Shown: positions 3,195-23,034 of the stretch, one piece after another
Position numbering within the stretch: the first letter of the stretch is position 1
Layout: each line of letters begins with the position of its first letter
Origin: an uncultured bacterium
Lineage (GTDB): Bacteria; Bacillota; Clostridia; Lachnospirales; Lachnospiraceae
Direction: 5' to 3'
Assembly: GCA_947177425.1 (NCBI GenBank)
Contig: CAMWUN010000041.1
Span: 1 to 33,004 of the forward strand
Length of the DNA: 33,004 nucleotides
Notes under the pieces: model-generated
The model's input: only the letters and a program-made list of their open reading frames with translations
Database searches by the model: none
Told to the model about the DNA's origin: nothing
Translations under genes and position numbers: made by a program

Positions 3195-3202
3195 TCAAGG
3201 TT

Positions 3203-3302: not shown

Positions 3303-3315
3303 TTTGACAAAAGGG

Positions 3316-3344: not shown

Positions 3345-3354
3345 ATAGGTACAC
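3325..3354. promoter_or_regulatory. Likely BlaI-type operator over the promoter
   Basis: GTGTACC (3325-3331) and GGTACAC (3348-3354) form a perfect 7-bp inverted repeat that brackets the -10 box. A second dyad, AGGTA (3347-3351) with TACCT (3362-3366), overlaps its right arm. BlaI/MecI repressors bind dyads built on TACA/TGTA cores (family knowledge), so repression by the product of the next gene is likely. Confidence 0.7.
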
Positions 3355-3500
3355 AGACGTATACCTTTTGCAATGAAAAACATATTATGCAGACGAATTA
3401 TTCCGTAGCGCAGCACCATCCGGCCATACAGATGAAATATGCCGAAAAATGACGGCCGCAAACGTCTGAATATAACAGGAATTCTAAAAGGAGATATATC

Positions 3501-3860
3501 ATGGTTCAATTATCAAATTATGAATGGAAAATTATGAATTTAATATGGGATGAACAGCCCCGGACGATTACACAAATTACAAAAGCTCTGGCAGAAGAAA
3601 CCGGGTGGTCCAAGCATACAGTCATTACTTATTTAAACCGACTGGAGGCCAAAGGTGCGGTTCACTATGAAGAAGGTGCAAAGGCGAAGCTTTACTTTGC
3701 AGATATTAGGAGAACGGATGCCCAGCTTCAGGAAATAGATTCCTTTTTAAATAAAGTGTTTTCGGGAAGCCTGGGGCTGATGGTAAAGACTATGATAAAG
3801 GATGAGAAGCTTTCGGATGAGGATATAGATGAACTGGTAAATATACTCAAAAACAGTTAG
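3501..3860 (+). CDS. BlaI/MecI-family transcriptional repressor
   Basis: 119 residues, the usual length of the family. The N-terminal winged helix is recognisable: LSNYEWKIMNLIWDEQP, ITQITKAL, and the recognition helix WSKHTVITYLNRLEAKG followed by a short beta wing (VHYEEGAKAKLYFA). The C-terminal helices (residues about 75-119) give the dimer interface. In the classical system the repressor is inactivated by proteolysis triggered by the partner BlaR1-type membrane peptidase, which here is the next gene, 11 bases downstream. AAAGGAGA precedes the ATG. No beta-lactamase or PBP2a gene is in the window, so the regulon is something else, at least its own operon. Confidence 0.92.
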   Translation: MVQLSNYEWKIMNLIWDEQPRTITQITKALAEETGWSKHTVITYLNRLEAKGAVHYEEGAKAKLYFADIRRTDAQLQEIDSFLNKVFSGSLGLMVKTMIKDEKLSDEDIDELVNILKNS

Positions 3861-3871
3861 GAGGACAGGAA

Positions 3872-5938: not shown

Positions 5939-6090
5939 GTTAAGCTAAGAAATGCATTAAACGACTTTCAGAAAGTGCAAAAACGTATGTTATTGGCAAA
6001 AGAGGAAAATGCCGCCAGCACATATAGCAGGGCAACAGCCGTCATGGAACCAAAACTCACACCTAAATCATGTTCTCACGGGAATAAATA

Positions 6091-6115
6091 CGGCAGGGCT
6101 TATCACACCCTGCCG
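6091..6115 (-). terminator. Probable terminator at the end of the hydrolase operon
   Basis: CGGCAGGG (6091-6098) and CCCTGCCG (6108-6115) make a perfect 8-bp stem. On the minus strand it follows the GH3 stop by about 20 bases and is followed by TATTTATT, a weak T-rich tail. The stretch 5939-6136 otherwise shows nothing I can support. Confidence 0.55.
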
Positions 6116-6136
6116 TCATTACATGCCGCCTGTTAT

Positions 6137-8263
6137 CTAAATGAGAATTTTTATATCCTTCACGCTGCTTCCCACCGCCAGCCTGCATCCTTCCATTCTT
6201 TCCTTCACTTCAATCTGCAGACTGCCGCTTTCGCCTGTTCCCAGATAAATTTTCCCAAATCCCACAAGTTCCTTTACCGGCCTCATTCCCTTAAGGCTTT
6301 CACCTGCCTTTGGCCGCTGTGGCATTTCTTCTGGACTTTCCGTCATCCGGTACACCTGAACCGTTTCCGCCCCGGCATATGGCCCTGCATTAGAAATCCG
6401 GCATGTCACATATGCCTTTCCATCCTTTTCCTGATACCGGGCATCCTCATAGACAAATTCCGTATAGGAAAGTCCATGCCCGAAGCAGAACCGGGGTTCC
6501 ACGCCAAATGTCTCGTTATAGCGGTATCCCACGAAAATCCCCTCCTGGTATGCCACGCTTTCTTCCTTGGCAAACTCCCCGATACAGTGTGCAGAACAGT
6601 CCGTATGTTTCTTATAAAAAGTCTCTGGCAGTTTCCCGGAAGGATTCACCTGCCCAAACAGAACTTCCGCCAGCGCATATCCCCCTTCCATGCCTGCATA
6701 ATAACTCCATACAATACTCTGTGCGCTTTCTGCCCATTCTCCCATCTCCACGGGACTGCCGCCAATCAAAACCACAATAGTATCGGGCCTTGCCTGCAAC
6801 AGTTCTCTTATCAGCGCATCCTGCTCATAAGGAAGCTTCATGTCGCTTCTATCCAGCCCTTCACTGTCATAATCATGGTTCAAGCCTCCTACAAAAATAA
6901 CCGTATCATATGCCCCGGCAAGCTTTACAGCCTCTTCCCGCAGGGCAGCACGTTCCTTAGACAGATTTTCTCCTCTGCGCTGGGTTTCTGTGCGTCCGCC
7001 CCCGTCTTGCAGGCTTTTTTCCTGCCAGTTGCCGTCGTCTTCTGCTTCCTTTTTGCCGCTGTCATATCCTTTGGAAAAGTCCACCTGTACATTACCGCCC
7101 AGCAGTCTCTTTATACCCATAAGGGGAGAAGTCTCATAAAGCGCCTTGATTTCCGCGCTTCCACCTCCGTTTGCGTGCATCCGCTCTGCATTTTCCCCTA
7201 CCAGCAGTACCTTTTTCATCTTTTCCGCAGAAAGAGGCAGACGATTCCCTTCATTTTTTAAAAGAATTATAGATTCCCTGGCCCCGTCCAGCGCCGCCTG
7301 CCTGTGTTCAGGCGTATTATAACTTCCTCTCTTACGAACCGCCTGCCCACTATCCCCTATCATATGGAGACGCTGCATAAGCATCAGGATATGGATTACC
7401 TTTTTATCCACTTTTTCTTCGGGAACAATTCCCTGCTCCACTGCTTTTTTCAACGGGTCAGCCATAAAGTATTCATCAAAATTGTCGGTTACGGACATTT
7501 CAATATCCAGTTCTGATACAGCCACCAGCTCTGTGTCATGGACGCCGCCCCAGTCGGATATCACCACACCATCATATCCCCATTCTTTCCGCAGAATCTC
7601 TTCAAGAAGATACCTGCTCTGACAGCAGTGCTCCTTGTAAATCCTGTTGTAAGCCCCCATAGCCGTAAGACTTCCTCCCCGGAGCAGACAGTCATAAAAG
7701 GCCGGGAGATAGATTTCCCTAAGGGCCTTTTCATCTATCTCCACATCCACCCAGAGCCTTTGAGTCTCCTGGTTATTAGCCGCAAAATGCTTTACGCAGG
7801 CCGCCACATCCCACTGCTGTACCCCCTGTATAAAAGGAACCGCCAGTTCCCCTGTCAGATAAGGATCCTCGCTGAAATATTCAAAGTTCCTGCCGCACAG
7901 CGGGCTTCTCTTAATATTAATACCCGGGGCCAGTATCACATCCTTGCCCCTTCCTCTGGTTTCCTCCCCCAGAACACTTCCCATGGCAAATGCCAGTTTC
8001 CGGCTCCATGTGGCCGCCAGTGCGCTGTTGCAGGGAAGGTAGGTCACATAGTCGTCCGAGCATCCGACTGCTTTCCAGTGATCCGGCTCAAATTCCTGCC
8101 GCACCCCCATAGGCCCGTCCGACATGACCAGCGGCGGAATCCCCAGACGCTCCACACCTTTTGTGGCAAAAAGATGGGCGCCGTGAATCATCCCGATTTT
8201 TTCTTCCAGAGTCAACTGCCCCGCAATGGCCGCAGCTTTTTCCCTCATTTCATTATCCTTCAT
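6137..8263 (-). CDS. Glycoside hydrolase family 3, beta-glucosidase-type
   Basis: 708 residues, no signal peptide. Order of parts: (beta/alpha)8 domain (about 10-300) with LVMSDGPMGVR, KHFAANNQE and the nucleophile Asp237 in VVISDWGG; alpha/beta sandwich (about 325-570) with the acid/base candidate Glu468 in YDSEGLDRSD; fibronectin-III-like end (about 595-708). Residues about 400-440 are a charged, low-complexity insert. SEG(L)DR supports a beta-glucosidase-type GH3. The ATG at 8263 is chosen because GAGGAT (8271-8276) is seven bases upstream; a GTG lies one codon earlier. It is the last gene of the operon, 143 bases after the alpha-xylosidase; the gap holds a small CAGGCA/TGCCTG hairpin (8387-8402). 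Expected job: removing glucose units exposed by the other enzymes. Confidence 0.9.
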   Translation of the reverse strand: MKDNEMREKAAAIAGQLTLEEKIGMIHGAHLFATKGVERLGIPPLVMSDGPMGVRQEFEPDHWKAVGCSDDYVTYLPCNSALAATWSRKLAFAMGSVLGEETRGRGKDVILAPGINIKRSPLCGRNFEYFSEDPYLTGELAVPFIQGVQQWDVAACVKHFAANNQETQRLWVDVEIDEKALREIYLPAFYDCLLRGGSLTAMGAYNRIYKEHCCQSRYLLEEILRKEWGYDGVVISDWGGVHDTELVAVSELDIEMSVTDNFDEYFMADPLKKAVEQGIVPEEKVDKKVIHILMLMQRLHMIGDSGQAVRKRGSYNTPEHRQAALDGARESIILLKNEGNRLPLSAEKMKKVLLVGENAERMHANGGGSAEIKALYETSPLMGIKRLLGGNVQVDFSKGYDSGKKEAEDDGNWQEKSLQDGGGRTETQRRGENLSKERAALREEAVKLAGAYDTVIFVGGLNHDYDSEGLDRSDMKLPYEQDALIRELLQARPDTIVVLIGGSPVEMGEWAESAQSIVWSYYAGMEGGYALAEVLFGQVNPSGKLPETFYKKHTDCSAHCIGEFAKEESVAYQEGIFVGYRYNETFGVEPRFCFGHGLSYTEFVYEDARYQEKDGKAYVTCRISNAGPYAGAETVQVYRMTESPEEMPQRPKAGESLKGMRPVKELVGFGKIYLGTGESGSLQIEVKERMEGCRLAVGSSVKDIKILI

Positions 8264-8406
8264 CACTCATATCCTCAACTTTTCATGTCCAGAGCATATG
8301 CGCCTGCAGCAGCATCAGCCATTTTGCAGACGCATAGCGATTCTTGCTGGCTGGTCAACGCCCACGGCAGCCGCCAAATATCCGTGCAGGCACAGTTGCC
8401 TGGGAA

Positions 8407-10734
8407 TCAGCATACGCCCCGGAGCGTCACATCCTCTTCTGTAAGCGCAAGAACCGTATCATTTCCCTGAATCTCCATATCTGCCCCCTGTGCATCTGCA
8501 AGAACACAGTTGACCAGACGCACCCGGCATCCTGCGCCGCCAGTCACATGACCTTTTATGGTTTGGCCCTCCTTTTCAAACCGGGCTCTCACCAGTTCCC
8601 CTCCCGCCTGATAAACAACCGTTTCCGCTGTCGTCTCAAGAGCAAAAACTTTCAGTTCCAGATTTTTCTTAAAGTCATAATCTGCATTTTCAAATGCAAT
8701 TCCTGCAGCTATGATGCTGTCAGCACGCACCCATAAAGGCACGGACAGGTAATCCTGCTTTTCGCATCTCCACTTACCCCCTGACACCGTCTCTTTCGTC
8801 AGATAATTTACCCATGTTCCTTCTGGCAGATAGTAACGGGCCATTCCTTCTTCATTGAAAATGGGGGCTGCCAGCAGGCAGTCGCCCTGCATATACTGCT
8901 TATCCAGATAACGGCAGTTATAATCCCCTTCAAATTCCAGCGCCATGCTGCGCATCATGGGAATTCCCGTCCGCGACGTAAGCACCGCCTGGCTGTACAG
9001 ATAAGGCATAAGTTCCAGCTTTAGCTTTGTGAAAAACCGCACCACATCCACCGCTTCCTCGTCATATGCCCATGGCACCCGGTAGGAATTGCTTCCGTGC
9101 AGACGGCTGTGGGTTGACAAAAGGCCGAAAGCCGCCCATCTCTTATATACATCTGGTGTGGATGTACTCTCAAACCCGCCAATATCATGGCTCCAGAATC
9201 CAAAGCCGCTGCTGGTAAGAGACAATCCGCCCCGCAGACTTTCCTCCATGGACTCATAGTCAGACCAGCAGTCGCCGCCCCAGTGTACCGGGAACTTCTG
9301 CCCCCCTGCCGTAGCGGAACGGGCAAACAGCACCGCCTCTTCTTTTCCTCTCTTTTTCTCAAGCACTTCATAAACAGTCTTATTGTAAAGGTACGTATAG
9401 AAATTATGCATCTTCACCGGATCCGCACCGTTATAATATACAGCGTCCACAGGGATACGCTCGCCAAAATCCGTCTTAAAGCAGTCCACGCCCATATCCA
9501 GCAGCTTTTCCAGCTTTTCCTGATACCAGCGGCATGCCTGGGGATTGGTAAAGTCAACAATTGCCAGCCCCGGCTGCCACATATCCCACTGCCATACATC
9601 CCCGTTTGGCCTTTTTAAGAAATAACCTTTTTCCATCCCCTCGTCAAACAGTGCAGACTCCTGTCCTATATAAGAATTAATCCAGACGCAGATTTTAACG
9701 CCCTTCGCCTTAATCCTTTGCAGCATCCCCTTCGGGTCCGGGAACACTCTTTCATCCCATATAAAGTCCGTCCAGTGGAATTCCTTCATCCAGCAACAGT
9801 CAAAATGGAACACCGAAAGGGGAATTCCTCTCTCCAGCATGCCATCTATAAAACTCATTACCGTCTTTTCATCGTAATCGGTTGTAAAAGATGTAGAAAG
9901 CCATAGACCGAAAGTCCACTGGGGCGGCAAAGCCGGCTTTCCGGTCAAATCCGTATACCGCTCCAGAACCTCTTTCATGGACGGCCCGTTTATAAGGAAG
10001 TAATCCAGACTTTCCCCTTCCACTGAAAAGCCCACTTTGCTCACCTGCTCCGTTGCCACCTCAAACTCCACCCTTTCAGGATGATTCACGAACACGCCGT
10101 ATCCCCGGTTTGAGAGATAAAAAGGTATATTCTTGTAGGACTGCTCCGTACTGGTTCCCCCATCCTCATTCCAGATGGAAACCGACTGGCCATTTTTCAC
10201 AAAGGGAGTAAAACGTTCACCCATGCCGTAAACCAGTTCATCCACAGAAAGCCCTAACTGCTGGCACATATAAGCATTGCCGGGCTTATCGTAGGGCAGT
10301 CCCTTCCAGTCCTTCTTTACATATGCCAAATCCTTGGCTGCGCTTCTTGTAAGCAGCTTCCCGTCTCTTTCATAAGTCATTGACCATTGTTCCATATCAA
10401 TCACAAGGCTTAAATGACCATTCCTGACCGTAAGCATTCCGTCTTTTTCGGTTACATCCAGTTTCTGGTCCCCGGGCAGGTTCAGTTCAAACTCCGGCGC
10501 CTTTTTCAGTACCCCTTTATAATGATAAGCCTGCACACGTATCACCTCGGGGCTGGGCGCGCTGATCCGCACTGTAAGGTTAATCCCTCCCAGTGTATCG
10601 CCCTTTTTTATAATCCGGGCTGTAGGCGCACACAGTACCACTTCCTTTTCGCCTTTTCTCACTTCGTAAACATGCTGCGGATAAAAACAGCCAATTCCTT
10701 CCTTAAATAACCAGCATCCGTTATGATATTTCAT
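8407..10734 (-). CDS. yicI: Glycoside hydrolase family 31, alpha-xylosidase (YicI-like)
   Basis: 775 residues, against about 772 in Escherichia coli YicI. N-terminal beta-sandwich (1-250), catalytic barrel from about 270 with nucleophile Asp422 in FKTDFGE and acid/base Asp488 in HWGGDCWS, close to D416 and D482 of YicI. FHFDCCWM (310-316) keeps the cysteine position that YicI uses to favour xylose over glucose; the neighbouring phenylalanine is Cys here. C-terminal beta domains follow. The ATG at 10734 was chosen over longer options because AGGAGG (10741-10746) lies six bases upstream. No signal peptide: cytoplasmic. The enzyme removes alpha-1,6-xylosyl branches from the non-reducing end of xyloglucan oligosaccharides. 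It lies 112 bases after the GH3-GH42 gene. Confidence 0.93.
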   Translation of the reverse strand: MKYHNGCWLFKEGIGCFYPQHVYEVRKGEKEVVLCAPTARIIKKGDTLGGINLTVRISAPSPEVIRVQAYHYKGVLKKAPEFELNLPGDQKLDVTEKDGMLTVRNGHLSLVIDMEQWSMTYERDGKLLTRSAAKDLAYVKKDWKGLPYDKPGNAYMCQQLGLSVDELVYGMGERFTPFVKNGQSVSIWNEDGGTSTEQSYKNIPFYLSNRGYGVFVNHPERVEFEVATEQVSKVGFSVEGESLDYFLINGPSMKEVLERYTDLTGKPALPPQWTFGLWLSTSFTTDYDEKTVMSFIDGMLERGIPLSVFHFDCCWMKEFHWTDFIWDERVFPDPKGMLQRIKAKGVKICVWINSYIGQESALFDEGMEKGYFLKRPNGDVWQWDMWQPGLAIVDFTNPQACRWYQEKLEKLLDMGVDCFKTDFGERIPVDAVYYNGADPVKMHNFYTYLYNKTVYEVLEKKRGKEEAVLFARSATAGGQKFPVHWGGDCWSDYESMEESLRGGLSLTSSGFGFWSHDIGGFESTSTPDVYKRWAAFGLLSTHSRLHGSNSYRVPWAYDEEAVDVVRFFTKLKLELMPYLYSQAVLTSRTGIPMMRSMALEFEGDYNCRYLDKQYMQGDCLLAAPIFNEEGMARYYLPEGTWVNYLTKETVSGGKWRCEKQDYLSVPLWVRADSIIAAGIAFENADYDFKKNLELKVFALETTAETVVYQAGGELVRARFEKEGQTIKGHVTGGAGCRVRLVNCVLADAQGADMEIQGNDTVLALTEEDVTLRGVC

Positions 10735-10846
10735 AATCTGCCTCCTCTGAATAATTATTGTATCTTCGCCATCAAAATTAAGTCCGGCGGGCTTTGCTAT
10801 CCTCATTATACATAAAAACTGCCGCTGCCGATACTATATTTTTCAA

Positions 10847-13800
10847 TCATAAAGCACTGTAAATTTGGGAGGAATTTACCTTAAGAATTGCTACTCCTTT
10901 TGCCGGAATTTCAAACTGTTCCCCGGCTCCATACCGTCTGCCTTCAAGCAGGGATTCCCCGTCAGCCAGAGCGGTCACTTTAACGTCCCGCTCCCCATGA
11001 TTGAGGAAAAATAAAAAACACATATTCTCCTTGCTCCGGGCGCAGATCTCCACACCCGGAATCTCCTCCCAGAGCGGCCGTACCCCGATTTCTCCGGCAA
11101 TTTTCCACACAAAATCTTTATAAAAATCCTCATCCCCCCTGGATGCCACATAATACGCACTGCCGCCGCCATATCTGTTCTTCGTCAGCACCGGCGCTCC
11201 TGCATAGAAATCTTTTTCATAAAAGGCAAGAGCCTGCGCTTTCCGGGTGTAAAGAATATCACAGAGCAGTTCGCATTCGTATGTTCTGCCGCCCCACCTA
11301 AAACTGTTTTTAACATTCCGGGGCAGAGCGTCCGTCTCCTCCACCCAGATTCCCAGCACGTCTCTAAGCTGCCCCGGATATCCCCCGGGCTGCACCAGAT
11401 CATGTTCATCCACAATCCCTGAGAAGAAGGTGGTGACAAAACACCCGCCGCCCTCTACAAACCTTTCTATCTTTTGGGCATAACCTTCCTTTACCATATA
11501 AAGCACAGGCGCAATCACCAGGGAATAGCCATCCAGCGAATCTGACACGGAAATAATATCCACTGGGATGTTTTTATCAAAAAAAGCATCATAATAACGC
11601 TGTACTTCATCCAGATATTTTAAATCACAGCTTGGCCCGGCGGAGTATTCCAGCGCCCACCAGTTGTCCCAGTCCACTACAATGGCTGCCTGGGCCTTCA
11701 CCCTGCTGCCCAAGGTTTCTCCCCCCAGCCTGCCAAGTTCCCGGCCTAACGCTTTCACCTCCCGGAATACCCTTGTATATTCATGTCCTGCGTGGTCGAT
11801 AACCGCACCGTGATACTTTTCGCAGGCCCCGATACTTCTGCGCATCTGAAAAAACAGCACAGAATCAGAACCATGGGCAAGCGCCTGATAGCTCCACAGA
11901 CGCATAACACCGGGGCGCTTCAGGGCATTATATGCAAGCCAGTTGGTAACGCTGGGGGTCTGCTCCATCAGCACAAAAGGTGCCCCCTGCTTCAGCCCCC
12001 GCATCAGGTCATGATTCATTGCCGCAGCCGAAGGCGGCGCTTCATTGGCAGGGTAATTATCCCAGGACGCAAAATCCAGATACCTGGCCCACTTGTGGTA
12101 GTCCAGATTCTTATAAAACCCCATCATATTGGTAGTCACAGGAATTTCCGGCGTCACAGCCTTAATTTCCTGATATTCCATCTTATAGCAATCCAGCACA
12201 GAATCGGAAAAAAACCGCTTATAATCCAGAGAAATACCCTGAAACGTCGTCCTTTCCCTTTCAAAATGTTCACTGAGCAGATTCGGCACAGGCACCTCCT
12301 CCCAGTCATAAAAAGTGTGCCCCCAGAAGGATGTGTTCCATACCCGGTTCAGTTCCTTTAGAGAATCATATTTCTCTTTCAGCCATTTTCTGAACCCTCT
12401 TTCACAATTCCCGCAGTAACACTCTCCCCCGTATTCATTAGACACATGCCAGGCTATGATATTATCGTATCCCTGATACCGTTCTGCCAGCTTCCGTGCA
12501 AGCCGGGAGGAATACTTCCTGTATATGGGGCTGTTAGGGCAGGAATTGTGTCTGTCCCCGAATTTCCTCTTCATTCCTTCAAAATTCGTGCGCAGCACTT
12601 CCGGGTACTTTCTGGCCATCCAGGCCGGATGCACAGCGGTGGAAGTGGCAAGAATCACCTGCAGATTGTTTTTCCTTACTAACTCCATAATCCGGTCCAG
12701 CTTGTCAAAACAATAGGTATCTTCTGAAGGCTGTAAAGACGCCCAGCTAAACACATTCAGCGTAACACAGTCAATCCCCGCCAGCTTAAAAAGACGCATG
12801 TCTTCTTCCCATACCTCCTCGGGCCACTGCTCCGGGTTATAATCACCCCCATAGGGTATTTTCTTAATCTTCTCCGAAAAACTTTTATATGCCGTCTTTT
12901 TTTCAGCGGCAAATGAAAAGCTTTCCAGTTCTGCGCCCCCCTGCAGCTCTATCCTGAGTTCCTTAAATACCTTAGGATTTTCCACCATATTCAATGGTTT
13001 TCCTGTGCCCTCACAGGCCGCCTGCCCTTTCAGATTTTCTCTCTTAACTGGCAGTCTGACCTTTGAAAACTCCTGCCTTATTCCCTTCCATGATAGGACT
13101 TTTTCCGTATCCTCCCGGCATCCCGCAGCCCTGCTCTCCGCTGCCTGATGCCCTTCGGCGCCTTTTTCCTCTTCCGTCAGAAACACCCTGATACTCCCCT
13201 GCTGGCTGCTGCGCAGGTTCATCACCAGATGGGTTTCCTCCCCTGTCCATGCAAAGCCCCGGTAAATTAAAACCGTCTTTTCCTCCGGCCTTAAAACGCC
13301 TACACAGCTTACCCCTCCGCCGGCATGACGCAGGACCGCATTTTCATAATCGTCGTAATGGTCAGCCGCCGTCCTCTTTACAGGGTCGCGCACAGAAACA
13401 ACATCACCCTTAATAAATGTCCTGTACTGCTGCTTCCCGTCTCCTGCAGTAACAAGATACTCTCCTTCTTCCACAATTTTGCGGCGCCCTGCCACATCAT
13501 AAACTGCCAGCTCCATACAGGGGATTTCCAATTCCACTTTCCGCTTTTCCCCCGGAGCAATATCCTTTAACCGTCTGAACCCAATCAGACGCCTGGCAGG
13601 ATGCCTGATACGTGACGGGGAAAGGCGCTTTCCATAAATCTGTACTACCTCATCTCCCCGGCAGTCCCCCGTATTCTCCACTTCCATATCTACATACAGC
13701 ATATCTCCCGACTGCCTTACCTGCAAATTCCCATATCCGAATTCCGTGTAGGAAAGCCCGTGTCCAAAGGGGTAAAGAACTTCCCCCTCAAAGTACTGGT

Positions 13801-15862
13801 AAGTCCTCTTCCCTTTGATAATGTCGTAATCATCCATATCCGCCAGTTCTTTCACCGTCCGGTACCAAGTAAGAGGCAGACGTCCCGATGGGTTTACTTC
13901 CCCAAACAATAGGTCTGCAGCAGCATTTCCCATCTCCTGGCTCCCTGTAGCCATCTGCAAAATGGCAGGAAGATGTTCCTGTTCCCAATTAATGCTATAG
14001 GGATAATTGGTAAACAGCATCAGCACAATATTGGGATTTACCTTATAAATTTCCTGCACCAGCTTTTCCTGAAAAGGCGCCAGAATCAAGTCTGTCCTGT
14101 CAATCTCTTCCTTACTGTTAATCATAGGGTTACAGCCTAAGGCAACGATTACTTTTTCCGCATGCCCGGCCAGTTCTGCTGCTTCACGGATGCCGTCCCT
14201 TACCAGTTCCTGTACAAAGCATACAGCTTCTTCTTTTTCCCCTGCCCTTAGGTATCTGTCCTTCTCATTAGCTGAATCCTGCATTCTTTCAGAAGTTTTC
14301 CCTCTTAAACTGTCCCCGATTGCAATTCCCCGGCCATCCCAGCCGTACAGCCGTACACCTTTATCTGTCTCCTCCATGCGGAAGCTTTCCTTCACAAACC
14401 ATCCGAAAGGCGCGTCCTTATCCGCTTTCAGGTATCCCTCATCATGAAGACTCACATATTTTTTCAGGGACGGCACATACAGGGTAGTACTGCCAAATCC
14501 CCAGTCATTCACCTCCAGAACAACTGCCCTCTGCGCATCTGTTGTCAGGACAAGCTTCTGCTCCCCGTCCAGCCCCACATACCGGCTTCCCACCCGGAGT
14601 TTACTCCATGGCAGGCCGTTGTCAAAAGGAATCTCCCTGCCCAGCAGGTTTTTCAGCCCCTGCCTTAATGTGACCCGATAGGGCGGCTGCCCGCCATACC
14701 AGTCCTGAAACCATGCATCCCCCACTGGCCCGGCAACAGCAATCCTGTCTGACCTGCCAAGAGGAAGGAAATTATCTGTATTTTTCAAAAGCACGCCGCT
14801 CTCCTGTGCCATTTTCCTGCTGATATCCGCCGCCTTTTCTGTATTTAAGTCTCCCTCTCCAATACCTGCATAGGGATTCTTATCCCTGTCATACAGCCCA
14901 AGACGGAATTTCGTACGGAAACTGTTGGTCAGAGCCTTATCTATATCCATCTCTGAAATCAGGTGGTTCTCATAAGCTTCCCGCACTGCCTTCTCTACGG
15001 TTTCCGGATCATCCGTAAAGCAGTCTGCCCCCGCCTTCAGGGCTTCTGCAACAGTCTCCCCATGACTTTTATAATAATGATGAAACTGCACTGTCTGGGT
15101 CATATCTTTGCCATCGCACACCACATGCCCTAAAAGCCCCCACTTTTCCTTCACCAGCTCCTTTACCTCATGGTTTAAAATAGCAGGAACACCGTTAATT
15201 TCATTATAGGCAGTCATCAGTCCTTCCGCCCGCCCCTCAGTAACTGCTCTCCTGAAAGGCTCCAGATAATATTCGTATTTATTCCGGGGATTAATGGAAG
15301 AAGATTTCCAAATCCTCCCCTCCTCTACATTATTTCCATAGAAATGCTTTACAGATGCCGCCATTCTAAGGTATCTGTCATCTGTTCCCTGCATACCCTT
15401 AATATAAGCGGAAGCCATTTTCCCTGCCAGAAGAGGATCTTCCCCGTACCCCTCCTCCGTTCTTCCCCAGCGCGGATCACGCTCCATATCTATGGTAGGC
15501 GCCCAGCGGCTTAGTCCGCCGTCCCCATTTCTGTTGAACAATGCCCTGGCCTCGGTGCCAGTCACCTCCCCCGCCTGCCTTATCAGTTCCGTATCCCAGC
15601 TTGCGCTCATGCCAATGGGCTGGGAAAAAGATGTTGTCCCGAATGCCTCTCCGCCGCTTCCCTGGTCATTTCTTGCTTCCACTCCGTGGGCTGCCTCCCC
15701 GCCAAAGGAAAATGCCGGGATTCCCAGCCGTTCAAGTGCCGGATGACGGGTGGAAAGAAAGGAAAACTTTTCCGCCAGAGTCATCTCGCCAAGCAGATAT
15801 TGTATTCTTTCCTCTATTGTTAAACTGGTATCCCAAAAAAGATTATCGTACTTCTTTTCCAT
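10847..15862 (-). CDS. GH3-GH42 fusion glycoside hydrolase
   Basis: A single open frame of 1671 residues with two complete catalytic modules. GH3 part: barrel (about 5-325) with DMERDPRWGRTEEGYGEDP, KHFYGNN and nucleophile Asp250 in VVCDGKDM; sandwich domain (about 355-690) interrupted by an extra beta-rich region (about 420-540); acid/base candidate Glu585 or 586; fibronectin-III-like domain (about 725-815). A CBM6-like region (about 830-990) holds a charged insert. GH42 part (about 998-1671): PYGGDYNPEQW start, acid/base Glu1143 in HVSNEYGG, nucleophile Glu1300 in LMEQTPS, and the four zinc cysteines 1108, 1148, 1150, 1153 typical of many GH42 enzymes. The start at 15862 has AAGGAGG (15868-15874) five bases upstream; a 10-codon-longer frame would read through it. 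No signal peptide. Predicted to combine beta-glucosidase/xylosidase and beta-galactosidase activities in the cytoplasm. Confidence 0.93.
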   Translation of the reverse strand: MEKKYDNLFWDTSLTIEERIQYLLGEMTLAEKFSFLSTRHPALERLGIPAFSFGGEAAHGVEARNDQGSGGEAFGTTSFSQPIGMSASWDTELIRQAGEVTGTEARALFNRNGDGGLSRWAPTIDMERDPRWGRTEEGYGEDPLLAGKMASAYIKGMQGTDDRYLRMAASVKHFYGNNVEEGRIWKSSSINPRNKYEYYLEPFRRAVTEGRAEGLMTAYNEINGVPAILNHEVKELVKEKWGLLGHVVCDGKDMTQTVQFHHYYKSHGETVAEALKAGADCFTDDPETVEKAVREAYENHLISEMDIDKALTNSFRTKFRLGLYDRDKNPYAGIGEGDLNTEKAADISRKMAQESGVLLKNTDNFLPLGRSDRIAVAGPVGDAWFQDWYGGQPPYRVTLRQGLKNLLGREIPFDNGLPWSKLRVGSRYVGLDGEQKLVLTTDAQRAVVLEVNDWGFGSTTLYVPSLKKYVSLHDEGYLKADKDAPFGWFVKESFRMEETDKGVRLYGWDGRGIAIGDSLRGKTSERMQDSANEKDRYLRAGEKEEAVCFVQELVRDGIREAAELAGHAEKVIVALGCNPMINSKEEIDRTDLILAPFQEKLVQEIYKVNPNIVLMLFTNYPYSINWEQEHLPAILQMATGSQEMGNAAADLLFGEVNPSGRLPLTWYRTVKELADMDDYDIIKGKRTYQYFEGEVLYPFGHGLSYTEFGYGNLQVRQSGDMLYVDMEVENTGDCRGDEVVQIYGKRLSPSRIRHPARRLIGFRRLKDIAPGEKRKVELEIPCMELAVYDVAGRRKIVEEGEYLVTAGDGKQQYRTFIKGDVVSVRDPVKRTAADHYDDYENAVLRHAGGGVSCVGVLRPEEKTVLIYRGFAWTGEETHLVMNLRSSQQGSIRVFLTEEEKGAEGHQAAESRAAGCREDTEKVLSWKGIRQEFSKVRLPVKRENLKGQAACEGTGKPLNMVENPKVFKELRIELQGGAELESFSFAAEKKTAYKSFSEKIKKIPYGGDYNPEQWPEEVWEEDMRLFKLAGIDCVTLNVFSWASLQPSEDTYCFDKLDRIMELVRKNNLQVILATSTAVHPAWMARKYPEVLRTNFEGMKRKFGDRHNSCPNSPIYRKYSSRLARKLAERYQGYDNIIAWHVSNEYGGECYCGNCERGFRKWLKEKYDSLKELNRVWNTSFWGHTFYDWEEVPVPNLLSEHFERERTTFQGISLDYKRFFSDSVLDCYKMEYQEIKAVTPEIPVTTNMMGFYKNLDYHKWARYLDFASWDNYPANEAPPSAAAMNHDLMRGLKQGAPFVLMEQTPSVTNWLAYNALKRPGVMRLWSYQALAHGSDSVLFFQMRRSIGACEKYHGAVIDHAGHEYTRVFREVKALGRELGRLGGETLGSRVKAQAAIVVDWDNWWALEYSAGPSCDLKYLDEVQRYYDAFFDKNIPVDIISVSDSLDGYSLVIAPVLYMVKEGYAQKIERFVEGGGCFVTTFFSGIVDEHDLVQPGGYPGQLRDVLGIWVEETDALPRNVKNSFRWGGRTYECELLCDILYTRKAQALAFYEKDFYAGAPVLTKNRYGGGSAYYVASRGDEDFYKDFVWKIAGEIGVRPLWEEIPGVEICARSKENMCFLFFLNHGERDVKVTALADGESLLEGRRYGAGEQFEIPAKGVAILKVNSSQIYSAL

Positions 15863-15891
15863 ACCTTCCTCCTTAACTGCCTGTGAATACA

Positions 15892-15982: not shown

Positions 15983-17665
15983 TTATTCAACCATTGCTAC
16001 TTTTTCTTTTACGATTTCCGTCAGCATCTGTTCTGCTTCGCCCATGCCTGTGCTCTCCAGGTCGGCAAGCATCTTGTCGTAAGATGCATCAAAGTCAGAC
16101 TCGCTTCCAATGACACAGCTAATCAGGGCAGACCATGCGATTTCATCCAGCTTGTTACCGATTTCATCAAATTCAACAGGCTTTGTGTAAGCCCAGATTG
16201 CAGAATATTTGGGTGTCTCAAACTCGGACGCCTGAGGATAAATATCTACCAGCAGATCCACGCCCCATGCTTCACATCCCGCTTTCTGCTCTTCATCATA
16301 CTCTGCCATAACGGCTTCCGCACTGGCAGTCGTGTAACTGCTTCCAGAAGCGTCCAGTACGCCGTTGCCATAGCAGGGGAAAGGATAATTGTGGAATCCT
16401 ACGCCCGTATTCTTTTTATAATCTTTATTGCTGTTGGACTCATCAATTTCTTCCTGGGTACGGTAACGGTGGCCTTCATCGTCAAGGAAATAGTTGGTGC
16501 CTTCAATTCCCCAGTTCACCAGTACCTGGCCTTCGTCTGAACAGAGGAAATCCAGATATTTGATTGCCGCCACAGGGTCTTTGCATGCAGTTGTTATACC
16601 TACACCCTGGCCTGTTGTAAGCCCCTGATACATCAGAGAAGGCGCCTTTGTACCAGCGTCCATTGTAAGCGGTATACCGCAATAAGTTTTATCCACTTTT
16701 CCATCTGCTTTTAAGATTTTTTCACCGTCACTGTAATCCCAGTCGGTATCAAAAAGCGACAGTACGCGGCCTGTGGAAATCTTTGCAATGTAATCCTCAT
16801 GGGTCTGGGTTGCAAATTCGTGGTCAAGAACCCCTTCATTATACATCCTGTTCAGCCATTTGAAATATTCGCGTACCTTTTGGGAACGGAATTTATAAAT
16901 TGCATTATAATTCTCATCGATAAGCCACTGCCCATTATCCGGCGCGCCTTCTGCAATGTATCCGGCAGGATTTCCCAGGGTAATCATCCAGTGCCAGTCG
17001 GAAGTGGAAAGGGTAATCCCAATGGTATCCATGCCATCGTCTGTAGTGGGATGGGCTGCAATATAATCTTTCAGCATCTTCTCAAATTCATCCAGCGTCT
17101 CAGGCACTTTGTAATTATTTTCTTTCAGGACTGCCCACTGAATCTGGGCATTGCCGGAATGTTTATAGTTTGTTCCCCCTACGGCATAAGAGGATAACTG
17201 ATAAATTGCCGGATCGTCATTTGAATATTTCAGCTTTTCAAACTCTTCTCCATACAGCTTTTTGATATTTGGCCCATATTCTTCAATCAAATCTGTCATG
17301 TCAATCAATGCGCCTGCGTCAATTAAACTTCCCGCATCGCCCTTTGCGTAAATCATATCAGGGTAATTTTGTTCTGCAATCATCAGCGCCACTTTCTGGT
17401 CGTCTGAAGATACCGGATACTCTGTTTTCAGCTTTACGCCTGTCTTTTCCGTCAATACCTGAGCAACCGGATCTGTCCATGGATCTTCCTCTCCGTCTGC
17501 ATTGTAAAAAGTCAGCTCAATGACACCGTCGCCACTTTCGCTTCCGCCTTCATTTCCGCCGCCTGACGTGCTGGAAGCATCTCCGCCTTTTCCGCCGCAT
17601 CCGCTTATCATTCCTGCTGCCAGGGAAAGCGTTAATAATAAGGTACATAACTTCTTTGCTTTCAT
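15983..17665 (-). CDS. Sugar ABC transporter substrate-binding lipoprotein
   Basis: 560 residues. A lipoprotein signal is clear: MKAKKLCTLLLTLSLAAG then ISGC with the lipid-anchored Cys23, followed by a Gly/Ser/Asp-rich linker (residues 24-47). The mature part fits family 1 extracellular solute-binding proteins of the large LplA-like kind that pair with LplB/LplC permeases: ADGEEDPWTDPV, MIAEQNYPDMIYAKGD, and a C-terminal lobe with AIKYLDFLCSDEGQVLVNWGIEG. Located on the outer face of the membrane. AAAGGAGAGG precedes the ATG. It follows the second permease gene by 45 bases in the same operon. Its ligand should be the oligosaccharide that the downstream enzymes break down; xyloglucan-derived sugars are my best guess. 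Confidence 0.9.
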   Translation of the reverse strand: MKAKKLCTLLLTLSLAAGMISGCGGKGGDASSTSGGGNEGGSESGDGVIELTFYNADGEEDPWTDPVAQVLTEKTGVKLKTEYPVSSDDQKVALMIAEQNYPDMIYAKGDAGSLIDAGALIDMTDLIEEYGPNIKKLYGEEFEKLKYSNDDPAIYQLSSYAVGGTNYKHSGNAQIQWAVLKENNYKVPETLDEFEKMLKDYIAAHPTTDDGMDTIGITLSTSDWHWMITLGNPAGYIAEGAPDNGQWLIDENYNAIYKFRSQKVREYFKWLNRMYNEGVLDHEFATQTHEDYIAKISTGRVLSLFDTDWDYSDGEKILKADGKVDKTYCGIPLTMDAGTKAPSLMYQGLTTGQGVGITTACKDPVAAIKYLDFLCSDEGQVLVNWGIEGTNYFLDDEGHRYRTQEEIDESNSNKDYKKNTGVGFHNYPFPCYGNGVLDASGSSYTTASAEAVMAEYDEEQKAGCEAWGVDLLVDIYPQASEFETPKYSAIWAYTKPVEFDEIGNKLDEIAWSALISCVIGSESDFDASYDKMLADLESTGMGEAEQMLTEIVKEKVAMVE

Positions 17666-17710: not shown

Positions 17711-18607
17711 TCAGTCTTTCACTGCGCCCAGCGTCATACCGCCTACAAAGTATTTCTGTAAGAAGGGATATACAATCAGAATAGGCACGGTTGCCACAAT
17801 GGTAATCGCCATACGCACGGACATGGGAGACACAGCGCTTTGAAGCTGATTTGCCTGTGCATGGGGATCAATTTTAATGGTGGCTTTTTCCATAATTTCA
17901 TACAATACATACTGTAATGTAGGAAGATTTCTGGCATAAAGATAAGTATCCATAAATGCATTCCACTGCCCTACCGCCAGGAACAGCGCCACTGTTGCAA
18001 TAGTGGGCGTACACAGGGGAAGGATTACCTTTGCCCAGATGACGAAATCGTTTGCCCCGTCTATCTTTGCCGCCTCCTGCAATGCCAGCGGCAGTCCTTC
18101 GATAAAGGAACGCATTAAAATAACATTGTACACCCAAATCAGGCCGGGGATAATATATACCATGAAATTATTGCTCAGATGCAGCGTTCTTGTAAGGAGC
18201 AGGTACTCGGGAATCATACCGCCGCTTACGTACATGGTAATAATAAACAAAATTGTAAAGGGCTTGTTAAAGTAGAAGTCTTTCCGGCTGAGCACATAGG
18301 CCAGCATTGCCGTGCATACCACACCGACAATAGTTCCCACCAGTGTCCTCACTACCGACATGACAAATGCACTGCCCAGATTATTTTCTTCAAATATGTA
18401 AATATAATTGCTGAGCGTAAACTTTCTGGGAATGATGAAGTTAATATTCCTCATAGTGTCCATAGGGTCATTTAAGGAAATTGCCAGCACATTCAAAAAC
18501 GGATATACCGTCATGACAATCAGCAGCAGGCAGAATACCACCAGCACATAATCCAGGGCCTTTTCGCTTTTCCCCATATTTTTAATCTGATAATTATTGT
18601 TTGCCAT
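17711..18607 (-). CDS. Sugar ABC transporter permease, LplC/MalG type
   Basis: 298 residues with six membrane segments and the inner-membrane loop EAAKIDGANDFVIWAKVILPL (residues about 200-220), the coupling motif that docks the ATPase. The sequence ends FLQKYFVGGMTLGAVKD, the standard close of LplC-type permeases. The gene follows the other permease by 12 bases and has GGAGG upstream of its ATG. It pairs with that permease and with the lipoprotein. No ATPase gene lies in the operon; as is usual for this subfamily in Firmicutes, a shared MsmX/UgpC-type ATPase encoded elsewhere probably powers it. Confidence 0.92.
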   Translation of the reverse strand: MANNNYQIKNMGKSEKALDYVLVVFCLLLIVMTVYPFLNVLAISLNDPMDTMRNINFIIPRKFTLSNYIYIFEENNLGSAFVMSVVRTLVGTIVGVVCTAMLAYVLSRKDFYFNKPFTILFIITMYVSGGMIPEYLLLTRTLHLSNNFMVYIIPGLIWVYNVILMRSFIEGLPLALQEAAKIDGANDFVIWAKVILPLCTPTIATVALFLAVGQWNAFMDTYLYARNLPTLQYVLYEIMEKATIKIDPHAQANQLQSAVSPMSVRMAITIVATVPILIVYPFLQKYFVGGMTLGAVKD

Positions 18608-18619: not shown

Positions 18620-19549
18620 CTATACAAGTTTACTCTCGCCAAGCATGCCCGCAATCTTATTGGCAATAAATAAGAGGATAATACCAACCACCGACTGGAA
18701 CATGCCTATGGCTGTACCAAGTCCGTAATTGTTGCTTCCTATACCGCGGATATAAGCAAACCAGGAAAGAACCATTGCATGATCCTGCACGATACCGTTG
18801 CTCAAAAGCATCTGGCGTTCCATGCCTACATTCAGGGCTCCGCCTATACTCATAATGAGCAGAACGATTACGGTGGGCTTAATACTGGGAAGGGTAATAT
18901 GCCAGATTCGCGCAAAACGGTTTGCACCGTCCACTTTAGCCGCCTCGTAAAGCCCCTGGTCGATTCCCGCCATGGCGGAAAGATAAATAATTGCATCCCA
19001 TCCCATCTCTTTCCAGACATTAATCAGGCAGACCACTATCCAGAACATGGGGGAATTGGTGGACATCAGATGGAGCTTCGTATTCAGCATCGTATCTACA
19101 GCGCCGCCATCGTTTAATAGCATCTTGGCAATGCTGGCAATGATAACCCACGATACAAAGTGGGGCAGATAAGATACTGTCTGTGTTATCTTCTTAAAAC
19201 GGGTAAAACAAATTTCATTCAGTACCAGCGCAAAGAAGATAGATGACACTGTCCCGATTGCAATGCCCAGAATACTGATTCCGATGGTGTTGATCATTGT
19301 CTGGGGGAACAGGCGGTCTGTAAATGCCTGGATGAAATTATCAACCCCCACAAACTTTCTCTCCCACACTGGCAATGCAAAGGAATTTGGTTTCACTTCC
19401 TGAAATGCCATTGTCCATCCCCACAAAGGCAGATACTTGAACACAATCAGCCATATGACAAACGGTACCGACATGGCCAGAAGATAGCGCTGTTTCCACA
19501 TTAATTGCATGGAAAACTTTTCTTTTTTGATTTTTTCTTTTTTCTTCAC
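18620..19549 (-). CDS. Sugar ABC transporter permease, LplB type
   Basis: 309 residues starting with a lysine-rich cytoplasmic tail (KKKEKIKKEKF), six membrane segments, and the coupling loop YEAAKVDGANRFARIWHITLP. The stretch KYLPLWGWTMAFQ is typical of LplB permeases. The GTG at 19549 is preferred to the TTG at 19573: a GGGAGG site (19558-19563) lies inside that longer version and eight bases before the GTG. First gene of the transporter-enzyme operon, preceded by a -10-like TATAAT and by the terminator of the regulator gene. Heterodimer partner of the permease encoded next. Confidence 0.92.
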   Translation of the reverse strand: MKKKEKIKKEKFSMQLMWKQRYLLAMSVPFVIWLIVFKYLPLWGWTMAFQEVKPNSFALPVWERKFVGVDNFIQAFTDRLFPQTMINTIGISILGIAIGTVSSIFFALVLNEICFTRFKKITQTVSYLPHFVSWVIIASIAKMLLNDGGAVDTMLNTKLHLMSTNSPMFWIVVCLINVWKEMGWDAIIYLSAMAGIDQGLYEAAKVDGANRFARIWHITLPSIKPTVIVLLIMSIGGALNVGMERQMLLSNGIVQDHAMVLSWFAYIRGIGSNNYGLGTAIGMFQSVVGIILLFIANKIAGMLGESKLV

Positions 19550-19574
19550 TTCTGCAACCTCCCTTTCTGTCAAT

Positions 19575-19718: not shown

Positions 19719-21242
19719 TTATTCCTCTATCATTTCTTTTTTGTACTCTTTGGGGCTGATTCCCACATACTTTTTAAATTTCAGGTAAAAATAATCAATG
19801 TTGCCATAACCAACCTGCTCCGAAATCTGATATACTTTCATGTCTGTCTCCCGAAGCAGCCGCTTGGCATTCACAATACGTATAGTATCAAGTATATTGT
19901 TAAAACTGTCCCCCATTTCCTTTCTGAAGATTTTCCCAAGATAGTTACTGTTATAGTTGAACATCTTCGCAAAACCTTCCACCTTAAGATCTTTACTGTA
20001 ATTCTTTTCCATATAATAATACATCCGCTTGATGACCGTCCCTGAATCATCGCTGCCTATCTGCCTGCTCATATCCTGCAGAATCCTGCAGTACAAATCC
20101 ATAAGAAGATTCAGCTTTTCCGCCCGGTTCATATCCTCCATCAGCTTCATAATCTGGCCTGTGATATTCCCGTATTTCTTCTCAATCTCCCCACGGATAA
20201 TCATCAGATTGTACATTATCTGGATTTTTATATCCATTTCCTTCATCAGCCGCTTCATACAGTAAGTCTTGAACTTCTCCACACATTCCTGTATCCCGTC
20301 CAGATCCCCTACCTCAATCAGCATCATGAACTGCTCTGTGGAGGGACATTCCGCTGTTTTCTGCTGCTGTTCAATGGTATCAATAGAAAGTACATCATAA
20401 TGTCCAAACAAAAACTCCTGCTCAAGCATAAATTGGGCGAATTCATAGGAATAGCACAAATCATACCACTTGTTTACATTGTGTCCCACCGCAACCAGCA
20501 GCCCTTCCCCGCATTTTTTGGAAAGCCGCTCATTCCGCTGTGACAGCAGTCCCACCCACCTTTTATAATCCAGCCCGGAACTCACCAGTACAATCTGATT
20601 GTCCATCACCATCTTCTCATCATATAGATCATCCTTCTGTAAAAAAAATTTAACCTTTTCCTGAAATTCTCCCGACTCCTTCCGGCTTAACATTTCCCGG
20701 TCCGTGAGAATGGCCGCGCACAGGATTTCCTCCCCGAAAGAAATCTGATACCGCTTCATCTGTTCTTCCAGAACTTCCTTAGTATCCATATGCAGGATAA
20801 TCCTGCGGAACAGTTCCTCTTTTGCAATGTCTTCATTGGCGGAATGATAACTCCGTTCACCTTCCTTATGTATCAGTTCCTCCCTTATCCTGCGCACACA
20901 TCCGCCAAGTTCCTCCTCGTCGATAGGTTTAAGGAGATATTCCTTCACCCCAAGCCTGATGGCGGATTTGGCAAACTCAAACTCCGAGTAACCGGTAAGA
21001 AGGACAAAATATCCCTCATAGCCTGTTTCCCTGGCAGCCTGAATCAAATCAATTCCGCTCATTCCCGGCATTTTGATGTCCACAAAAGCGAGGTCAGGTT
21101 TATAATCCAATAACTTTTTCAGGCCGTCCTTTCCATCCTTACCATCCTCGCAAAAGGTAAACCCTTCCGCTTCCCAGTCAAGCAAATCCTTAACGCCCCA
21201 TCTTATCATTTCCTCATCATCAATTATCATTACCTTGTACAT
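19719..21242 (-). CDS. Response regulator with AraC-type DNA-binding domain (YesN-like)
   Basis: 507 residues. An N-terminal receiver domain shows the acidic pair IIDDEE (7-11), phosphorylation site Asp55 in FVDIKMPG and the LLTGYSEFE and KEYLLKPID blocks. A long middle region (about 130-400) is followed by a C-terminal pair of helix-turn-helix motifs (about 405-505): FAKMFNYNSNYLGKIFRKEMG and QISEQVGYGNIDYFYLKFKKYVGISPKEYK. The ATG at 21242 gives the canonical MYKVMIIDDEE start; a longer start seven codons upstream is possible. It overlaps the kinase gene by 23 bases, so the two are translated together. By analogy with YesMN systems it should activate the adjacent sugar operon in response to an oligosaccharide. 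Confidence 0.92.
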   Translation of the reverse strand: MYKVMIIDDEEMIRWGVKDLLDWEAEGFTFCEDGKDGKDGLKKLLDYKPDLAFVDIKMPGMSGIDLIQAARETGYEGYFVLLTGYSEFEFAKSAIRLGVKEYLLKPIDEEELGGCVRRIREELIHKEGERSYHSANEDIAKEELFRRIILHMDTKEVLEEQMKRYQISFGEEILCAAILTDREMLSRKESGEFQEKVKFFLQKDDLYDEKMVMDNQIVLVSSGLDYKRWVGLLSQRNERLSKKCGEGLLVAVGHNVNKWYDLCYSYEFAQFMLEQEFLFGHYDVLSIDTIEQQQKTAECPSTEQFMMLIEVGDLDGIQECVEKFKTYCMKRLMKEMDIKIQIMYNLMIIRGEIEKKYGNITGQIMKLMEDMNRAEKLNLLMDLYCRILQDMSRQIGSDDSGTVIKRMYYYMEKNYSKDLKVEGFAKMFNYNSNYLGKIFRKEMGDSFNNILDTIRIVNAKRLLRETDMKVYQISEQVGYGNIDYFYLKFKKYVGISPKEYKKEMIEE

Positions 21243-23034
21243 ACGCTTTTCCCCCAAGCTCATCCGCCCCCGGCAGAAGAATCTCTACCCTTGTGTAGCT
21301 TTCCTCCACGCTGTCAATCGTAACTCCGTACGCATCACCATATTTCAGTTTCACTCTCTGATGTACATTGCTGACTCCGATATGCTTCCCATTTTCATTA
21401 TAACTGTTTAAGCTGCGGCGCAGCTCTTCCAGTTTTTCCGCATCCATACCCAGTCCGTCATCTTCAATTGCAATGACTGCTTTTTTGTCTCTCTGGAAAA
21501 TGCGGATATCAATTGTCCCAATTCCTTCCTTTCCCTCCAGTCCATGAATAATTGAATTTTCCACAATAGGCTGCATGATAAGAGGGAGAATATACCCGTC
21601 CTTCAAATCCTCCTCCACATAAATGCGATACTGGATTCTTTCTCCAAAGCGGTACTGCTGGATTTTCAGATAATGTTCCACCAGTTCCGTCTCCGCCTGA
21701 ATTGTCACTTCGCTGTTCCCCGCCTGCAGCGTGCTCCGCATAATCTTGGCAAGCATCCTCACCAGTTCCTCAATATCATACTGCCTGCTTTTTCGCGCCC
21801 TCATCCGTATGGTTTCCAACGTATTATACAAAAAGTGGGGATTAATCTGGCTTGCCAGCATCTTAAATTCCGCATCCTTCTGCTGGATGGTAAGCCGTTC
21901 CGCATGAAGCCTTTCCCGGTATATTTCCGCCAAAAGCTTTTGAATCTGAAAAATCATGGTTCCCAGATAATCGTAAAGGTCGCTGATTTCATCACTGCCT
22001 CCCAATTTTTCTTCCAACTGGAAATTTCCTTCCGCTGCCTTCTGCATCTGGGCACGGAAGTTCTCCACCCGGCTGCTGAAAGATTGGGAAAAAAGTAATA
22101 TTATCGTAATGGAAAGCACTGCGCTTACCACAAAAATAGCAGCGCTCCCGGCCGTCTGGCTTCCAACCTCCCTAAGTATGTCCTGATATGACTTAAAACT
22201 GATAATCTGCAAATAATCCTGGGACTCAATCAGAGGAATCGTCTCGCAGGTCATTACGTACTCCTGCTTTCCAAAAAAAATATTTTTCTGGCTCTGGCCG
22301 CTCCGCTCATTTTGGACGAACTGCATAATCTGGCCCGGCTCTATCTGGTCCCCCAGATCTACCACCACCATTTCTCCATTCAGCAGCACAAATGTATCGC
22401 AGTTTCTGTCCTGCAAAAGCGTACGGAACCGTTCAGGCCGGATATATACTGCCAGCACTCCCACTTCTTCCCCTCTTTGGGTCTTCAGCATCCGCATCAT
22501 GGATAGGGCACTGTAATCTGCGGCCGGAACCGGGTGAAAGCGCCATAAAGCGCCGCCGTTTTTCTGGCTAACATCCTTATACCACTCTTCCTCCTCCATC
22601 TCCTGTGTCACCCGGATGAAACGGGAATTTTCCACAATTGTAGGATTCTTCATATATATATTCATCCAGGCAATGGTACTGTTATAGTACCTTCCATAAT
22701 CCAGAAAGGATGTAAAATCCCTGTAATCACGTACCATATCCTGATATTCCGTATAATTTTTTGACGAAATCTCTTCCAACCGCTCATCAAAATAGAAATA
22801 TTTGGTAACGGTACTGACGGTATTCATAATTTCCTCCGCCTGTCTTCTTACCATTTCCATTTCAGTCACTTCCACATTCTTCGCCTGGTCAATTAAAATC
22901 CGTGACATGCCGTGAACCAGATACATACCGATCAGGATAATAGGCAGCGCCCCGCCAATCATATATACCAGCAGCATACGGTATCTGAGTTTGATTCCTA
23001 AAATCCGGTTCAAATAAGCCTTGACTTGGGCCAT
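21220..23034 (-). CDS. Sensor histidine kinase, YesM/LytS type
   Basis: 604 residues. Membrane helices at about 20-42 and 297-317 frame a large extracellular sensor region (45-295). A HAMP-like segment follows (about 318-372). The His_kinase domain of the LytS/YesM class carries the phospho-acceptor His400 in SQINPHFLYNTLE, and the ATPase domain shows LIMQPIVENSIIHG and the IEDDGLGM block. GGGAGA precedes the ATG. The gene starts 18 bases after the ABC exporter gene, which suggests shared transcription with it, and overlaps the response regulator downstream. The likely signal is an extracellular sugar, possibly presented by the binding lipoprotein. Confidence 0.92.
   Translation of the reverse strand: MAQVKAYLNRILGIKLRYRMLLVYMIGGALPIILIGMYLVHGMSRILIDQAKNVEVTEMEMVRRQAEEIMNTVSTVTKYFYFDERLEEISSKNYTEYQDMVRDYRDFTSFLDYGRYYNSTIAWMNIYMKNPTIVENSRFIRVTQEMEEEEWYKDVSQKNGGALWRFHPVPAADYSALSMMRMLKTQRGEEVGVLAVYIRPERFRTLLQDRNCDTFVLLNGEMVVVDLGDQIEPGQIMQFVQNERSGQSQKNIFFGKQEYVMTCETIPLIESQDYLQIISFKSYQDILREVGSQTAGSAAIFVVSAVLSITIILLFSQSFSSRVENFRAQMQKAAEGNFQLEEKLGGSDEISDLYDYLGTMIFQIQKLLAEIYRERLHAERLTIQQKDAEFKMLASQINPHFLYNTLETIRMRARKSRQYDIEELVRMLAKIMRSTLQAGNSEVTIQAETELVEHYLKIQQYRFGERIQYRIYVEEDLKDGYILPLIMQPIVENSIIHGLEGKEGIGTIDIRIFQRDKKAVIAIEDDGLGMDAEKLEELRRSLNSYNENGKHIGVSNVHQRVKLKYGDAYGVTIDSVEESYTRVEILLPGADELGGKAYVQGNDN

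Follow-up and report, generated by a model that had tools for sequence, protein, structure and literature searches.

As far as the available text of its report goes, the xyloglucan-oligosaccharide locus of R. cellulolyticum (Gal42A, Xyl31A, Glu3A, SBP2458) encodes GH42, GH31 and GH3 enzymes, a sensor with an AraC-like regulator, and two permeases with a sugar-binding protein and no ATPase, and its enzymes are cytoplasmic, without typical signal sequences (PMC4780118). The order of action proven for this locus is removal of galactose by GH42, then of xylose by GH31 and then of glucose by GH3; according to the same text, the beta-glucosidase is inactive on XXXG until the alpha-xylosidase has acted, and Xyl31A can hydrolyse isoprimeverose (PMC4780118). 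The window analysed here, that is, the whole stretch of 33,004 nucleotides from an uncultured bacterium of the Lachnospiraceae, carries an operon with the same kinds of genes (Table 1), and the gene set of a xyloglucan-oligosaccharide locus is present in full: a GH31 alpha-xylosidase whose best solved matches are YicI, a GH42 that is a beta-galactosidase by family, GH3, an ABC importer and a two-component system. In contrast to R. cellulolyticum, where GH42 and GH3 are separate and the available text names one GH3 in the cluster (PMC4780118), the window has an extra GH3 that is fused to the GH42. By analogy with the described locus, the operon probably takes up plant xyloglucan fragments, and this resemblance in gene content supports the xyloglucan-type setting put forward in a preliminary description of this DNA. 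The second GH3 (GH3b), located downstream of the alpha-xylosidase, is a likelier candidate for the backbone beta-glucosidase than the fused GH3.

Table 1. Features of the fusion gene and its operon, with positions in the window and residue numbers of the fusion protein.
Feature	Position	Strand	Remarks
Histidine kinase	21220..23034	(-)	
AraC-type response regulator	19719..21263	(-)	
ABC permease	18620..19573	(-)	
ABC permease	17711..18607	(-)	No Pfam match at 1e-5; weak NCBIfam permease matches
Extracellular sugar-binding protein of ABC importer	15983..17665	(-)	
Shine-Dalgarno AAGGAGG	15868..15874	(-)	Five bases upstream of ATG 15862
GH3-GH42 fusion ORF	10847..15862	(-)	1671 codons + stop; ATG 15862, stop at 10847
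GH3 N-terminal catalytic domain	14927..15646	(-)	Residues 73-312, Pfam; nucleophile Asp250 at 15113-15115
GH3 C-terminal domain (GH3_C)	13748..14794	(-)	Residues 357-705, Pfam; insert at about 410-555
Fn3-like domain	13439..13651	(-)	Residues 738-808, Pfam
GH3 C-terminal tail domain	12908..13351	(-)	Residues about 838-985; strand-rich in model; fast-evolving
Junction	12878..12907	(-)	Residues about 986-995
GH42 module	10850..12877	(-)	Residues 996-1671; barrel, trimerisation and C-terminal domains
GH31 alpha-xylosidase, YicI type	8407..10806	(-)	NCBIfam NF007940, 1213 bits vs cut-off 606
Second GH3 (GH3b), BglB-like	6137..8266	(-)	709 aa; SDW nucleophile motif

Outside this operon the window holds a stand-alone AICARFT/IMPCHase-type protein adjoining a PF07826 IMP cyclohydrolase, which we take to be of the archaeal PurO type (30608-32712, minus strand), a SUF-like pair of genes for a SufBD-core protein and an ABC ATPase (26676-28425, minus strand), and a BlaI/BlaR1-like pair of repressor and M56 sensor, the sensor having a long C-terminal extension (3501-5938, plus strand).

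Judged by its frame and its Pfam matches, the fusion ORF is two complete modules, GH3 and GH42, in a single frame, as had been described earlier for the 1671 codons; the strand, which the earlier account did not give, is minus. Pfam domains follow in the order GH3 N-domain, GH3_C, Fn3-like, GH42, GH42M and GH42C, with scores over cut-off for the GH3 N and C domains (130 and 157 bits) and for GH42 (residues 1007-1377, 497 bits), GH42M (1390-1594, 244 bits) and GH42C (1603-1661, 32 bits). The protein begins with MEKKYDNLFWDTSL, an N-terminus that by eye does not look like a signal peptide. The active-site residues Asp250, Glu1143 and Glu1300, previously listed as intact, were found at the places given for them: across 17 aligned GH3 rows (window included) there is no variation at Asp250 or at Glu585, which from its motif we take to be the candidate GH3 acid/base. 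Glu1143 (12434-12436) and Glu1300 (11963-11965), together with Cys1108/1148/1150/1153, are invariant in 17 aligned GH42 rows (window included), and from their positions we take these to be the catalytic pair and the zinc-site cysteines, the latter having been noted as present before. The insert in GH3_C comprises about 150 residues (14198-14635, minus strand), is strand-rich in the structure model and contains columns that are invariant across the 17 GH3 rows. The GH3_C span is longer in the stand-alone relative L046. The GH42 module shares with GH42 beta-galactosidases (best solved match 3tts) the full three-domain length, the Glu pair and the four zinc-type cysteines, and differs from them in bearing a GH3 of 985 residues at its N-terminus.

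The GH3 half looks xylosidase-like in its sequence. Its first 280 residues have beta-xylosidases as their five best solved matches (best E 1.2e-39), compared with E 7.2e-26 for the isoprimeverose-producing enzyme 5yot. Two separate structure models were made, of residues 1-1000 (mean pLDDT 77.3) and of residues 835-1671 (mean pLDDT 75.9); the model of residues 1-1000, the one compared with solved structures, has xylosidase 7vc6 as its best Foldseek match, with beta-glucosidases close behind. In common with GH3 beta-xylosidases (TrXyl3A 5a7m/5ae6; PcBxl3 7vc6; T. maritima 7zb3), the fused GH3 has a xylosidase-type Glu at O4, Glu56, which aligns with the O4-binding Glu89 of TrXyl3A and is invariant in the 17 rows, but unlike them it lacks the Trp at C5 and has the large insert and an extra tail domain. 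The position near C5 that is occupied by Trp87 in TrXyl3A, a residue that is credited, in the available text of its report, with a part in the preference for xylose over C6-bearing sugars (PMC8913315), is taken here by Gly54, likewise invariant in the 17 rows, so that a sugar with a C6 could also fit. As this Trp is absent, assignment of the GH3 half as a beta-xylosidase was rejected; the NCBIfam xylosidase equivalog, at 416.6 bits, did not reach its cut-off of 1250, and the GH3 half is below the cut-off of each NCBIfam model that it matches. Unfused, stand-alone relatives of this GH3 from the Lachnospiraceae and other Clostridia (e.g. L046, L041, L030) belong to the same subfamily and have the insert and the tail, and 15 such rows are 42-53% identical to the fused GH3.

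A second fused gene was found in Lachnospiraceae bacterium 1XD21-87 (L038; 193-kb contig QXWO01000005.1), where an ORF of 1659 aa sits in the same operon with the same neighbours, and likewise has AAGGAGG five bases upstream of its ATG. Its Pfam order is that of the window, except that GH42C is not among the matches at 1e-5. Identity between the two proteins is 81% over GH3 and 88% over GH42, with the tail lower at 53%, and they pair in the GH3 tree with support of 100/100. Between them dS is 0.75-1.41 across segments, and dN/dS is 0.075 for GH3 residues 1-409, 0.146 for the insert, 0.124 for GH3C, 0.369 for the tail and 0.077 for GH42. Both catalytic halves are under purifying selection (dN/dS 0.07-0.15), with the tail beside the junction less constrained.

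The position of the join can be placed from unfused relatives. Alignment of the GH3 half with 19 ORFs from other loci, namely the fused L038 and 18 stand-alone genes, showed that 16 of the 18 end at most about six residues from the strand of the tail that corresponds to residues about 976-985 of the fusion protein, unlike the fused GH3, where the chain continues; two stand-alone genes (L036 and L065) extend somewhat past this strand. Stand-alone GH42 relatives, their starts being taken mechanically as the first start codon, mostly begin within about 30 residues ahead of the motif GGDYNPEQW. The two modules are therefore joined almost end to end, with about ten residues (986-995) as a linker between them. 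In the model of residues 1-1000 a final long strand runs to 985 and a helix begins at 995; within the tail domain, confidence is low at 897-930 and 942-965. The earlier observation that there is no Met between about residue 959 and the GH42 start proved right, the only ATGs between codons 840 and 1025 being 881, 959 and 1022. An internal start that would yield a separate GH42 was considered and rejected, as no candidate is both well placed and conserved: those at 957/959/960 have 4/6 Shine-Dalgarno matches and no counterpart in L038, those at 880/881, within the GH3 tail, are common to L038 and poorly spaced, and that at 1022, with a 6/6 match spaced by 14 bases, is already within the GH42 barrel.

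What appears to be a relic of this junction is present in a third genome. G029, of the same genus as the window's genome, has the same operon without a GH3 in the corresponding slot, and its GH42 gene begins at a GTG in a stretch that is homologous to the final GH3-tail strand. Upstream of this gene, the DNA first corresponds to the fused genes' leader and then passes directly into junction sequence that codes for GH3 tail. When the alignment register is set by the GH42 motif, 13 of 27 junction residues match the window without a gap, a result equalled in 0 of 100,000 shuffles, and the first 17 residues alone give 7/17 (p 0.00035). In a GH42 tree made by a quick method without bootstrap, and with partial ORFs dropped, SH-aLRT is 98 for the window with L038 and 100 for these two with G029. 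As G029 branches outside the window and L038, the simplest reading is that the fusion was ancestral to all three and that GH3 was deleted in G029. This suggests that the fusion is older than the G029 split and was partly undone in G029. The G029 genome, with a completeness of 89% and about 100 contigs, could be mis-assembled, which we count against our best explanation. Just upstream of the relic junction, the frame of the G029 sugar-binding protein is interrupted near its end (L076, about 6021-6130).

Multi-catalytic glycosidases are already known as a kind. Our searches of the open-licence literature listed no paper on a GH3-GH42 fusion, and fused records in this analysis number two, the window and L038. 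The window's own genome gave the only fused match in each of three genome samples that overlap one another and the two that follow: 1 of 37 genomes of the genus (E 1e-150; best 13 candidates per genome), 1 of 397 of the family (1e-250; best 2 per genome) and 1 of 374 of a sample of relatives (1e-290; best 2 per genome). Among 392 genomes of the order, a GH42 match at 1e-120 was present in 82 (96 matches; best 3 candidates per genome); the 95 matches other than the fusion have frames no longer than 838 aa. For the phylum, 398 genomes were sampled, and PF02449 was matched at 1e-40 in 54 (79 matches; best 4 candidates per genome), with one other frame above 900 aa among them, the 1017-aa frame of G1055. 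A scan of genome contigs, which detects close relatives only, gave 37 loci, one of them fused (L038) and some of the others cut by contig ends. No further fused GH3-GH42 gene besides L038 was found among the best-scoring candidates of the sampled genomes.

Several long frames were considered as further fusions and rejected. In G1055, Pfam finds no GH3 domain, nor any family at 1e-5 in the first 320 residues. G024 has an apparent open frame of 1958 aa for GH3 and GH42, but direct translation shows many stops in the gap between them, and these are therefore separate genes. The 834-aa GH42 frame of L053 has an extension that looks like the region of another gene in a second frame and not like GH3, and in the 1274-aa frame of L079 the GH42 ORF is 680 aa.

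The slot occupied by the fusion, defined as the next matched gene after the sugar-binding protein, holds alternative enzymes in relatives. Synteny was compared in two sets, of 33 and 14 loci, after duplicate rows, weaker overlapping matches and loci of 9,000 bases or less had been dropped. The slot holds GH42 alone in L040, L064, L066 and G029 (L066 and L123 (G147:C1), whose contigs are equally long, being counted once), the fused-type GH3 alone in L041, L046, L127 and L128, and both enzymes, fused, in the window and L038. In L041 a GH42 lies nearby on the opposite strand. GH31 occurs in nine loci of the 33-locus set, with GH3b after it on the same strand in seven (not L057 or L075), and in four of the 14-locus set, with GH3b in one (L124, which is G029). 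In G016, G012 and G024, GH31 is beside a fused-type GH3 and no GH3b was found in the stretch compared, so there the fused-type GH3 could itself be the backbone glucosidase. Across the 37 genomes of the genus, the fused-type GH3 is found in nine besides the window's own (E 1e-150), seven of which also have a close GH42 (63-64% identity) as a separate gene. The unfused GH3 and GH42 genes of two loci, L077 (G018; 3071-3880) and L075 (G024; 4099-4923), are separated by an ORF of about 270 aa that is similar in both. In L057 the GH42 gene directly follows GH31 and has an in-frame stop within its first conserved motif (about 8037-8100).

We consider it probable, with moderate confidence, that the fusion is a single cytoplasmic two-headed exo-glycosidase for imported xyloglucan oligosaccharides, the benefit of which lies in co-production and co-localisation rather than in channelling. 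The sequence itself shows two intact modules in one frame, a fusion that occurs in a second species as well, with purifying selection acting on it, the gene content of the operon, and the junction relic in a third genome. With the N-terminus of a GH42 beta-galactosidase joined, almost without a linker, to the C-terminus of a GH3 glycosidase, the GH42 half would remove beta-galactose from the imported oligosaccharides and the GH3 half another non-reducing-end sugar, perhaps xylosyl or arabinosyl; GH31 would then take off the exposed alpha-xylose, and the second GH3 would shorten the glucose backbone. The most likely benefit would be fixed 1:1 production and co-localisation of enzymes that are alternatives in the slot of relatives. 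GH42 enzymes form trimers, and in them the N-terminus leads into the barrel from the side opposite the active site. Should the GH42 part of the fusion trimerise too, the complex would bear three GH3 modules, one on that opposite side of each barrel. The preliminary description had proposed that removal of galactose is channelled straight into backbone trimming. This is not borne out: in the proven pathway, as the available text gives it, the beta-glucosidase needs the alpha-xylosidase to act first, so the beta-galactosidase step does not feed the glucosidase directly, and GH3b is the likelier backbone glucosidase. Transfer from GH42 to GH3 by channelling is thus unsupported, given the alpha-xylosidase step in between and an N-terminus on the side of the GH42 barrel opposite the active site.

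Alternatively, neighbouring genes may have been joined by chance loss of a stop codon and spacer, with the two halves working separately and the link without function, which we regard as rather unlikely. Such an origin would suit G016, where these two genes stand unfused in tandem with 88 bases between them, as well as the apparent loss of GH3 again in G029 and the fast evolution of the junction-side tail (dN/dS 0.37), but the fusion has persisted over a dS of about 1 with both halves constrained. It is less likely still that the protein is an ordered two-step enzyme, in which the GH3 half would release isoprimeverose or act on the backbone once enabled by GH42 degalactosylation, with the YicI-type GH31 then splitting isoprimeverose; this is the preliminary proposal in the strongest version that it can take. 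GH3 enzymes that produce isoprimeverose exist, and one of them, PmIPase, did not hydrolyse LG, and so needs degalactosylation at the non-reducing end, while galactose on the second xylose was no hindrance to it, in the available text (PMC6325624). Hydrolysis of isoprimeverose by the GH31 Xyl31A (PMC4780118) and the room at C5/C6 left by Gly54 in place of the xylosidase Trp are consistent with such an order; the closer match of the first 280 residues to xylosidases than to 5yot, the tolerance of PmIPase for galactose on the second xylose, the second GH3 already present after GH31, and the action of GH31 before GH3 in the proven R. cellulolyticum pathway (PMC4780118, available text) argue against it. 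We are similarly doubtful of a broader form, in which the fusion would encode the order itself, GH42 stripping galactose first and the fused GH3 being an unrecognised bacterial isoprimeverose-releasing or second-layer debranching enzyme, the alternatives of the slot having been joined and GH3 lost in one lineage. An assembly or sequencing artefact at the junction, such as the frameshift or assembly join raised as a concern at the outset, is extremely improbable: although the window is a whole 33-kb contig from a genome of 142 contigs, L038 has the same in-frame junction in a separate record on a 193-kb contig, both frames are open throughout despite their different lengths (1671 vs 1659 aa), and a chance event, a frameshift or a mis-join is unlikely given that two assemblies carry the fusion.

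Natural fusions such as this one, probably of two cytoplasmic exo-glycosidases, point to enzyme pairs that may gain from joint production. Since close relatives have the two enzymes unfused, as alternatives or in an apparently reverted state, the value of the fusion can be tested. The analysis further draws attention to a GH3 subfamily found repeatedly next to sugar importers and, at some loci, next to alpha-xylosidases.
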